From: Winogradskyella sp. J14-2
GTDB taxonomy: Bacteria; Bacteroidota; Bacteroidia; Flavobacteriales; Flavobacteriaceae
Length of the DNA: 64,000 nucleotides
Assembly (NCBI RefSeq): GCF_001971725.1
Contig: NZ_CP019388.1
Location: 496,001-560,000 of the forward strand
Direction of reading: 5' to 3'
Shown: positions 50,091 through 57,138 of the stretch, in pieces
Numbering within the stretch: the stretch's first letter is position 1
How the letters are laid out: each line of letters begins with the position of its first letter
Position numbers and translations under genes: made by a program
Notes under the pieces: model-generated
The model's database searches: none
The model's input: the letters and a program-made list of their open reading frames with translations, nothing else
What the model was told of the DNA's origin: nothing

Positions 50091-50190
50091 ATCAGTGCCG
50101 TTTATGCCAAATATTTTAATAAAAGCACAGCACCTGCAAGAGAAACTGTAGAAGTAGCCAACCTACCCAAGTTTGTAAATGTAGAGATCA
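50091..50190 (+). pseudogene. Broken ridA 3' copy (first)
   Basis: About 100 bp match the intact ridA 3' end (the stretch encoding AVYAxYFNxxTAPARETVEVANLPKF in two parts, then VNVEI). It begins inside the gene with no start and is cut abruptly at GAGATCAG, where a DUF6090 5' end in the opposite direction begins. High identity to the parent suggests a recent event. Confidence 0.85.
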
Positions 50191-50305
50191 GAATCAAAAT
50201 ACCAATGACTACAAGTACAATTTCTCCGATGGCATATTTGAGATACTTACCGGTTTTTCCTTCCGAAAGTAAGTTCTGTCTAATTTTTCTAAAGAATTTT
50301 ATCAT
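50190..50305 (-). pseudogene. DUF6090 5' remnant fused to the ridA fragment
   Basis: From the ATG at 50305, 38-39 codons match the DUF6090 N-terminus (MIKFFRKIRQNLL...VLVVIGIL). The frame then runs into antisense ridA sequence instead of IALQINNWNE. So the membrane helix is interrupted and the soluble domain is missing: a dead remnant made by an illegitimate junction at about 50190. Confidence 0.85.
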
Positions 50306-53073: not shown

Positions 53074-53257
53074 GACGCGACCATTTAAAACATTATTAAA
53101 ACATCCATCTTCATTAGCGATATGCACAAATTTGCAAAGATCAAGGCCGTGTAGTCTACATATTTCAATAAAAACAATGCACTACCCAGAGAAAATGTTG
53201 AAGTAGCCAACCTACCTAAGTTTTTAAGTGTTGAGATAAGTATGATTGCTTTAAAAT
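53074..53257 (+). pseudogene. Broken ridA 3' copy (second)
   Basis: About 180 bp align to the intact ridA from the stretch encoding TFNNVIKTSIFISDMHNFAK through AVYATYF to near the stop. Several in-frame stops and substitutions are present (for example TAG in place of a Tyr codon at about 53152). More degraded than the first copy, so an older event. Confidence 0.82.
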
Positions 53258-53405
53258 CATATGCCATCAGAATGTCAATATATTCAATTAATTAGTCATA
53301 TCAAACGATACACAATAACACTACAACATACTAAAAAGCAACTTAATCGTTTAATTTTCAGTAGTATATATAATTTACTTATCTATAGTACAAATTAAAA
53401 GTAAT

Positions 53406-54610
<1,205 letters not shown>

Positions 54611-54805: not shown

Positions 54806-56416
54806 AATATCGTGTTTTCTAATCTTTAATCAAACCACAACTGTAAAAGGATTTGGAAAAGCTCTGCAAAAATATCGTGTTTTCTAATCTTTAATCAAAC
54901 CACAACTTGAACTCTGGAACTAAAAAACCGCCCAAAAATATCGTGTTTTCTAATCTTTAATCAAACCACAACTACGCTGACGTTGTAGGCTAATTGAGCA
55001 GAAATATCGTGTTTTCTAATCTTTAATCAAACCACAACACGACTGCAATGAACCAGTACCAGGTATCGAATATCGTGTTTTCTAATCTTTAATCAAACCA
55101 CAACAAAGGCGAAGAGTGATGAATCTAGTAATATAATATCGTGTTTTCTAATCTTTAATCAAACCACAACACGTTTACCAAACACCTCTTGTTTTGCTGC
55201 AATATCGTGTTTTCTAATCTTTAATCAAACCACAACTGTTATTGTTTCGTTAATTATTGGACGATTAATATCGTGTTTTCTAATCTTTAATCAAACCACA
55301 ACGGCGGCCACCAAGAGGACGAAGATATAGAAAATATCGTGTTTTCTAATCTTTAATCAAACCACAACTAAAAGCATAGGCATATTCACTTTTAAACTAA
55401 TATCGTGTTTTCTAATCTTTAATCAAACCACAACTGGATAAGCTGATATCTTTACACGATTTCCAATATCGTGTTTTCTAATCTTTAATCAAACCACAAC
55501 TGCTCATCCTCTGCCACCTTCGTTATTGCTAATATCGTGTTTTCTAATCTTTAATCAAACCACAACGGATTCATAGTTGCATCTGTGAAGGTTGTTAATA
55601 TCGTGTTTTCTAATCTTTAATCAAACCACAACTACTAGGATCCGCTGTTGGGATTTGTCAAAAAATATCGTGTTTTCTAATCTTTAATCAAACCACAACC
55701 ACAGTTGAAGTTAGTCAGCCAACGGCAGCAATATCGTGTTTTCTAATCTTTAATCAAACCACAACAGGTAGAACGCCGTCTTGTCTTTCTGTATAAATAT
55801 CGTGTTTTCTAATCTTTAATCAAACCACAACAATCTATTTTCAATAATAAATAGTTTTTGCAATATCGTGTTTTCTAATCTTTAATCAAACCACAACTGT
55901 ATCTAATGATAATTTGTCTATTGTTTAATATCGTGTTTTCTAATCTTTAATCAAACCACAACTAGACATCATCACACAAGCCAAACGTTTTTAATATCGT
56001 GTTTTCTAATCTTTAATCAAACCACAACCACCTCTTGATAATCATCTAATGTTCCTCCAATATCGTGTTTTCTAATCTTTAATCAAACCACAACTATGCG
56101 ACCTGTGGTTTGCTGATTTTGTTGAATATCGTGTTTTCTAATCTTTAATCAAACCACAACAACTTTTGATCATATAATACCATTAAGTAAAATATCGTGT
56201 TTTCTAATCTTTAATCAAACCACAACAATAAAGATGCTGATACTATTACACCAGAAAATATCGTGTTTTCTAATCTTTAATCAAACCACAACGTTAACGA
56301 TAATAGCATGGACTGTATATGAATATCGTGTTTTCTAATCTTTAATCAAACCACAACAAGTAATTTGTTGTGACACCAGAACCGCCAAATATCGTGTTTT
56401 CTAATCTTTAATCAAA
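54806..56416 (-). CRISPR. Type II-C CRISPR array: 24 full 36-bp repeats, 24 spacers, plus a truncated 25th repeat
   Basis: The 36-bp repeat on the plus strand starts AATATCGTGTTTTC and ends AATCAAACCACAAC. Repeats start at 54806, 54871, 54937 and so on about every 66 bp to 56322; the 25th, at 56388, matches 29 bp and then diverges. Spacers are 29-31 bp and all look different. All 24 full repeats appear identical. The tracrRNA anti-repeat has the plus-strand repeat sequence, so crRNAs must be minus-strand (repeat begins GTTGTGG). The array is thus read in the cas9 direction, starting from the end that carries the degenerate repeats. Confidence 0.98.
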
Positions 56417-56600
56417 TCGAACGCAGTAAGATTCACAAACACACCGATTAAAATAAAATGAGGTGTTTGTAAACCACTTTAACACTCAAAAGCAGTATCG
56501 CGCTGGCAACTACAATATCGTGTTTTCTAATCTTTAATCAAATCGAACATAGTGAGATTCACAAACACACCATTTAAAAAAATAAGGTGTTTTAAAACTT
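56417..56600. repeat. Duplicated array flank with a second truncated repeat
   Basis: After the truncated 25th repeat comes TCGAACGCAGTAAGATTCAC and ACAAACACACC with a hairpin to GGTGTTTGT. At 56514-56542 an identical 29-bp truncated repeat appears again, followed by the same flank with small changes (TCGAACATAGTGAGATTCAC, ACACACC...GGTGTTTT). About 30 bp directly before the second truncated repeat (56484-56513) may be a relic spacer. Confidence 0.85.
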
Positions 56601-56667: not shown

Positions 56668-57138
56668 TTAAAAAAACGGTCCTTTTCGATATTTATCTAT
56701 GGCGTCATCTGCTCTATGTTCCAACAAATCGGTTTGTATCATTGAAGGACTTTCAACTACAATATTTGCATATATTTCTATAGAGACTGCCTGATAAACA
56801 TCTTGTAAATTTAGCTTGCTTACAAATCCGTTAAGTTTTACACCTTGTTCCAATAAATTGGAGATAACTACATTTTCATAAGCTGGCAAATAGCCCAACT
56901 TTTTGGTATCATAAAATACGGCTACAGCAAAACTATCATATATGTTTTCTCTTTCTCTGCGTAATAACAAGGCGTCACCTACACTCATTTGTTTTTTCAC
57001 CTTATTAAGATCATAATGTGTAAGACCTTTTATGTAGTTATCATAAATTTTTATCGGCTTTTGGGCAAAATTAGTTTGCGGTATTACTAAACCAGTACTA
57101 CCCAATCCAAAGGCTTTAATAAAGTCTAAGCGTTTCAT
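56668..57138 (-). CDS. HIRAN-domain protein translationally coupled to cas9
   Basis: 156 residues. Residues about 1-27 resemble a short export or Tat-like leader (KRLDFIKAFGLGSTGLVIP), though with no RR pair. A HIRAN domain fills about 30-130 (IKIYDNYIKGLTHYD, VGDALLLRRERENIYDSFAV, KKLGYLPAYENVVISNLLEQG). HIRAN domains bind DNA ends in Rad5/HLTF-type repair enzymes and occur alone in some bacterial defence loci. Start ATG overlaps the cas9 stop by 4 bp (ATGA). It is the only non-cas gene between cas9 and the array. A cas9-linked role in target-end recognition or adaptation is inference; a housekeeping passenger is the alternative. Confidence 0.82.
   Translation of the reverse strand: MKRLDFIKAFGLGSTGLVIPQTNFAQKPIKIYDNYIKGLTHYDLNKVKKQMSVGDALLLRRERENIYDSFAVAVFYDTKKLGYLPAYENVVISNLLEQGVKLNGFVSKLNLQDVYQAVSIEIYANIVVESPSMIQTDLLEHRADDAIDKYRKGPFF

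Follow-up and report, generated by a model that had tools for sequence, protein, structure and literature searches.

The window analyzed here, a stretch of 64,000 nucleotides from Winogradskyella sp. J14-2, carries a type II-C CRISPR-Cas locus that comprises cas9, cas1, cas2, a predicted tracrRNA and a CRISPR array and contains neither csn2 nor cas4. The cas9 gene (57135..60539, minus strand; TIGR01865, E 1e-186) encodes a type II-C protein of 1134 aa with HNH and RuvC_III, and its stop codon is overlapped by a HIRAN gene on the same strand (56668..57138). The array (54806..56548) has 24 exact copies of a 36-bp repeat (GTTGTGGTTTGATTAAAGATTAGAAAACACGATATT, minus-strand reading) and, at its HIRAN end, two degenerate repeats that start from 56388 and 56514. 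Beyond the array from the HIRAN gene and on the opposite (plus) strand are cas1 (53406..54290; TIGR03639, E 6e-89) and cas2 (54239..54610 as the longest ORF, with a start likely near 54281; TIGR01573, E 6e-19). The predicted tracrRNA, consisting of an anti-repeat and a terminator-like hairpin, is located upstream of cas9 at about 60836..60922 on the plus strand. Its anti-repeat pairs with the repeat over 24 base pairs (repeat duplex, -29.3 kcal/mol), which sets the crRNA direction to the minus strand, so that the HIRAN gene reads in the crRNA direction, as claimed by the initial annotation of this DNA.

Several smaller features were also noticed around the locus. At 56388-56600, between the array and the HIRAN gene, each of the two degenerate repeats is followed by an AAACACC/GGTGTTT inverted repeat in what is a partial duplication, and this element is possibly the array start or a terminator of cas9-HIRAN. 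Beyond the tracrRNA (60928-61397), a 192-bp segment is present in two copies (98%) that are 278 bp apart, and short tandem repeats of the CCCAACACCCAA type are found between them. The short ORFs at 50102-50305 and 53085-53267 have a common NLGRLATSTxSL-type text and probably represent in-frame readings of a dispersed DNA repeat, not genes.

The HIRAN gene encodes a protein of 156 aa, whose residues 34-123 (56770..57039) match the Pfam HIRAN profile PF08797 (E 1.3e-11) with a score of 44.6 bits, compared to a curated cut-off of 24.7. PF08797 is also matched by all 24 members of the family alignment described below. The extent of the ORF and its assignment as a 156-residue HIRAN protein agree exactly with the initial annotation, as do the 4 bp (ATGA) shared by the start of the HIRAN gene and the stop of cas9 and the position of the HIRAN gene as the sole gene between cas9 and the array, where no further ORF of at least 60 aa is found. 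A search of the whole genome (one contig of 3.35 Mb) identified the HIRAN gene as a single copy. HIRAN genes are rare in the genus, being found in 2 of 68 genomes, and the second of these genomes has no detected cas9. The dN/dS of the HIRAN gene is 0.12-0.15, near the value of 0.18 for the C-terminus of cas9, and purifying selection acts on the HIRAN gene. It is presumably co-expressed with cas9.

The AlphaFold2 model of the HIRAN protein has a confident core, with block-mean pLDDT values of 87-97 over residues 31-120. Its closest solved structure is lp_0118 of Lactobacillus plantarum (PDB 3k2y; Z 14.5, 28% identity), an uncharacterised protein of 109 aa that lacks the leader and tail described below, and the HIRAN domain of HLTF, including its DNA-bound forms (4xzg, 6kcs, 4s0n, 5bnh, and 4xzf), matches the model with Z of 10.7-11.4. 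The confident core and the matches to HLTF and lp_0118 identify the HIRAN beta-barrel fold. Matches to the barrels of Cas12 and SmpB (Z 4-6) and to Hachiman HamB (Z 6.2) are all within the chance range. In the profile alignment, N65, Y67 and D68 of the window protein are the counterparts of HLTF N91, Y93 and D94. Among the 24 relatives, the residue at N65 is N in 23, that at Y67 is Y in 16 and H in 8, and that at D68 is D in all 24. HLTF N90, which is mutated jointly with N91 in a loss-of-function allele, has no conserved counterpart, as position 64 varies. In HLTF, the bound dinucleotide stacks against Y72 and Y93 (PMC4666394). On Cas9 post-cleavage complexes, the HLTF HIRAN domain binds the 3′ end that is exposed, and the N90A-N91A mutation abolishes Cas9 removal (PMC11237066). 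Binding of 3′ DNA ends by the HIRAN protein would be consistent with the predicted fold and with the HLTF end-binding positions that are kept. The likeness to HLTF/Rad5 lies in the fold (Z ~11) and in the positions of HLTF N91, Y93 and D94; unlike HLTF/Rad5, the window protein has no helicase or RING, is 14-16% identical, does not keep N90 and has an extra leader and a RADDAxDxYR tail.

The leader spans residues 1-20 (57079..57138, minus strand) and in most members of the 24-member alignment follows the pattern M-x-R-x-[DE]-F-[LIF]-x-x-[LF]-G-L-G, which is conserved and Tat-like without a twin arginine. The tail motif RADDAIDKYR covers residues 142-151 (56686..56715, minus strand); its consensus R[AS]xDxxDxYR is loosely matched by 19 of the 19 CRISPR-type members and by none of the five members of an unlinked clade. 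The initial annotation had noted that the N-terminus looks like an export leader, and this appearance stands, given that the leader combines a basic residue, a low-hydrophobic glycine-rich stretch and a proline and that TatC is encoded in the genome. That the protein is exported or bound to the membrane and acts on incoming DNA or in a task unrelated to CRISPR is, however, very unlikely. The second arginine of a twin-arginine motif is absent from all 24 members (the residue there is S, K, L, T, N or I), no AxA site is found in the leader, no family member matches the TAT profile, and the hydropathy of the leader of the window protein is lower than that of two leader peptides encoded in the same window. 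Tat export was rejected on the missing second arginine and the unmatched TAT profile. In addition, conservation in the close clade is higher for the leader (73.5%) than for the HIRAN core (59.8%), and across the whole family the two are at 50.2% and 46.7%, respectively, with a variable linker behind the leader. Sequence change is usually faster in signal peptides than in the mature protein. Thus, a leader that is as conserved as the domain is best read as a conserved functional segment and not as good evidence for export, and the HIRAN protein is probably cytoplasmic. The leader is also present in the unlinked relatives.

A Pfam HIRAN profile search of a class sample, consisting of 396 evenly drawn genomes whose wider flanks were inspected, identified 31 HIRAN genes in 30 genomes. 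Eight of the 31 are at cas9 or inside the same cas cluster (G000, G103, G219, G270, G288, G289, G348, and G376), counting G219, whose HIRAN gene is ~3 kb from cas9 with cas1-cas2 intervening. In the comparison with chance that the initial annotation had proposed, these eight stand against ~0.017 HIRAN genes expected at a distance of up to 2 kb from cas9; under the assumption of random gene positions, at least eight linked genes have a binomial probability of ~6e-20. A cas9 above the cut-off was found in 102 of the 396 genomes, and about 8 of these 102 have the gene at cas9; thus, most Bacteroidota cas9 loci are without HIRAN. When the window protein was used as the query in an order sample, all four strong matches (E <1e-30) were at cas9, and none of the 12 weak ones was. 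It had been stated at the outset that homologues mostly unlinked to cas9 would speak against a functional connection. This is the case for HIRAN genes overall, 23 of the 31 in the class sample being unlinked, and it is not the case for the subfamily of the window protein, to which the four strong matches and the close relatives described next belong.

Scanning 84,980 species genomes with a motif yielded 24 close relatives, a set that is enriched by design because the query alignment was partly made from linked members. Fifteen of them have cas9 on the same strand at a distance of no more than 100 bp, and a further one (L152) is next to an array. The HIRAN gene is on the same strand as cas9 in all 17 loci formed by these 15, the window and L107, with a spacing that ranges from a 4-bp overlap to a 100-bp gap, and the 4-bp ATGA-type overlap is found also in L151, L154, L155 and L162. 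Three gene orders are observed. In the first, cas9 is followed by HIRAN, with cas1-cas2 convergent past the array (the window, L151, L153, L154, L155, and L162); the second is cas9-HIRAN-cas1-cas2 (L157, L158, L160, L161, L165, and L107); and the third is HIRAN-cas9 (L163, L164, L171, L172, and L173). Culturable carriers of the gene include Flavobacterium franklandianum LB3P56 (L153) and Halpernia humi (L154). In the main clade, HIRAN always adjoins cas9 and adjoins cas1 in only ~4 of 17 loci. More distant HIRAN genes are found at cas loci as well (L077, L079, L088, and L089, the same places as L031, L033, L041, and L042). At two of these places other genes are present: a nucleotidyltransferase-like gene (L079:6357-6833) intervenes between cas9 and HIRAN, and an ATPase-like gene (L089:7073-8206) is found between cas9 and cas1 at a locus where HIRAN follows cas2 and contains an in-frame stop codon. 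The scan of viral contigs revealed no phage-borne HIRAN relatives.

The unlinked genes among the 24 are two of Capnocytophaga (L156 and L159), a divergent five-member clade (L166-L170) and L174. The Capnocytophaga genes (L156:10001-10486 and L159:10001-10462) are solo HIRAN genes with a CRISPR-type tail that are distant from cas9, and no cas9 at all was found in the draft genome of C. bilenii. L152 was dropped as a cas9-linked case and kept as array-linked only: its HIRAN gene is missing the first codons and is abutted by an apparent IS3-type orfA on the opposite strand (L152:1-170), with the array ~1.1 kb off. The same bin contains a close cas9 (L177) without HIRAN downstream. This cas9, together with the many other cas9 loci that lack the gene, indicates that HIRAN is dispensable.

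In a tree of 48 proteins, the linkage labels need six changes, at least four of which are forced by well supported branches, which indicates that the association of HIRAN with cas9 was gained or lost several times. The HIRAN gene could in principle be a passenger that travels with CRISPR loci and has no role in them, given that CRISPR loci are transferable, that the majority of HIRAN genes in the class sample are elsewhere and that Capnocytophaga has a solo copy. The three gene orders, the same strand and tight spacing in 17 of 17 loci, the several independent associations and the purifying selection make this extremely improbable, and a chance neighbour or passenger was rejected on the counts, gene orders, tree and selection. 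These observations support a specific partnership of HIRAN with type II-C loci rather than chance proximity. Its adjacency to cas genes is recurrent and non-random across lineages, as expected for a CRISPR-associated accessory gene, and we consider it very probably a genuine CRISPR accessory.

The divergence of the HIRAN proteins was compared with that of the Cas proteins by Mantel tests on 14 complete loci. No correlation was found with Cas9 (r -0.13, p 0.78), none that was significant with Cas1 (r 0.09, p 0.20), and a weak trend only with Cas2 (r 0.16, p 0.07), while Cas1 and Cas2 agree well with each other (r 0.82). The identity among HIRAN-linked Cas9s goes down to 23%. Within the HIRAN clade of the window, the HIRAN proteins are 53-71% identical, the Cas9s are only 30-48% identical in the pairs with L153 or L154, and cas1-cas2 stay close while cas9 changes. 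This pattern matches the in-situ exchange of Cas9 that has been reported in Flavobacteriales II-C loci (PMC12669027). The lack of co-divergence and the divergent Cas9s within one HIRAN clade indicate that HIRAN does not depend on any one Cas9 surface, and they fit recognition of a common product instead. They also bear on an improbable role as a Cas9-binding booster, in which the HIRAN protein would bind Cas9 via its leader or tail and raise DNA binding or cleavage and the HIRAN domain would add DNA affinity only. Such a role has a precedent in PcrIIC1, known as a II-C partner with an enhancing effect on Cas9 (PMC13153721). The 4-bp or near-zero spacing is suggestive of matched synthesis, and the leader and tail are strongly conserved, with the tail specific to CRISPR-type members. 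However, one HIRAN clade is found beside Cas9s of only 30-47% identity without co-divergence, and the leader is carried by unlinked relatives as well.

The main rival explanation, which we regard as unlikely, is an adaptation factor, i.e., a counterpart of Csn2 (II-A) or Cas4 (II-B) that would capture or protect the 3′-OH ends of prespacers for integration by Cas1-Cas2. Integration by Cas1 uses 3′-OH ends. Several loci place HIRAN between cas9 and cas1, and the closeness of cas1-cas2 in the HIRAN clade of the window while cas9 changes, together with the HIRAN-Cas2 trend, is in line with such a factor. Type II-C systems are without Csn2 and Cas4, both of which are required for adaptation in II-A and II-B, respectively (PMC6008519). 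On the other hand, the gene adjoins cas9 and not cas1 in most loci, L162 has near-identical-type cas genes and yet a distant HIRAN, and the Riemerella II-C locus in which spacer uptake was investigated is described as containing cas9-cas1-cas2 only (PMC6008519). The co-presence of cas1 and cas2 is undiagnostic for an adaptation role, as both are found in 37 of 40 control loci. It should be noted that in control loci without HIRAN (L183, L184, L203, L213, L215, and L218) the cas9-cas1 spacing is ~0.6-1.0 kb, which leaves room for other accessory genes.

The most likely reading is that the HIRAN protein is an optional, cytoplasmic II-C accessory that would bind Cas9-made 3′ DNA ends for the release of Cas9 or for spacer capture. 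Action at the Cas9 product is favoured because the main-clade gene always adjoins cas9 and only sometimes cas1. In this proposed mechanism, the HIRAN domain would grip free 3′ DNA ends in the cytoplasm, and its main target would be the 3′ end that cleavage of the non-target strand leaves exposed on the Cas9 post-cleavage complex, an end that a HIRAN protein adjoining Cas9 would meet at every cut. By holding this end, the protein may assist in detaching Cas9 from its product, or may pass the end to nucleases or Cas1-Cas2, and the leader and the RADDAxDxYR tail may serve as docking segments. HLTF needs its ATPase to remove Cas9, and its HIRAN domain in isolation inhibits this removal (PMC11237066); therefore, the effect on Cas9 could be of either sign. 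Without a motor, the HIRAN protein could make the product complex less stable, shield or tag the end, or transfer it to nucleases or Cas1-Cas2. Set against this model are the absent motor domain, the HLTF N90 that is not kept, the leader-like N-terminus, the majority of Bacteroidota cas9 loci that are without the gene and the close cas9 of the L152 bin that lacks HIRAN downstream. On balance, we place work at Cas9-made 3′ ends just short of an even proposition. More tentative is the proposal that the HIRAN-carrying II-C variant makes a dedicated 3′-end binder with Cas9 that would capture Cas9-cut ends and couple cutting to spacer capture, as an equivalent of Csn2/Cas4 or as an HLTF-like Cas9 recycler.

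The HIRAN protein resembles several known systems in part. In the current classification, PcrIIC1, a predicted PIN-domain protein, is a II-C accessory, and further ones are expected (PMC12669027). Like PcrIIC1, the HIRAN gene is an accessory gene at some type II-C Cas9 loci; unlike PcrIIC1, which is annotated as PIN-superfamily (PMC13153721), the window protein matches HIRAN only, with Pfam giving no PIN-superfamily domain and NCBIfam nothing significant. It shares with Csn2 and Cas4 the status of an extra type II gene with a likely DNA-end role, but neither the HIRAN protein nor the scanned neighbours match a Csn2 or Cas4 profile (Pfam, NCBIfam), and the HIRAN gene is optional and its product has a HIRAN fold. 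Bacterial HIRAN domains are known in HipA-type modules and candidate defence clusters (PMC8262856, PMC11706625). HipL/HipN (HipA-type modules) and PDC-M03B are similar to the window protein in being bacterial HIRAN proteins in a suspected defence context, but they are joined to HipS-like/HipA-like partners (PMC8262856, PMC11706625), whereas the HIRAN domain is nearly the whole of the window protein and its partner is Cas9. The PADLOC profile PDC-M03B matches residues 32-127 (E 1.3e-15) in its HIRAN part only (profile positions 134-231 of 250), and membership in PDC-M03B was rejected, given that the match is not full-length and the partner is cas9 instead of a HipA-type gene.

No bacterial HIRAN gene connected with Cas9 or CRISPR was found in the papers searched, and a mention inside published tables is possible. 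The presence of a HIRAN gene right beside cas9 in many Bacteroidota suggests an apparently undescribed CRISPR helper that would handle DNA ends. Type II-C is the supposed minimal Cas9 system, in which the handling of DNA ends after cuts and in spacer capture is little known, and a recurrent Cas9-adjacent member of an end-binding family makes this handling experimentally approachable. Human HLTF removes Cas9 from cut DNA by the same domain, and a bacterial HIRAN protein that evolved beside Cas9 could likewise be turned into a small factor for turnover or repair choice in genome editing. If the proposed role is true, HIRAN would fill for type II-C the place of Csn2/Cas4, or would recycle Cas9 like HLTF does in human cells.
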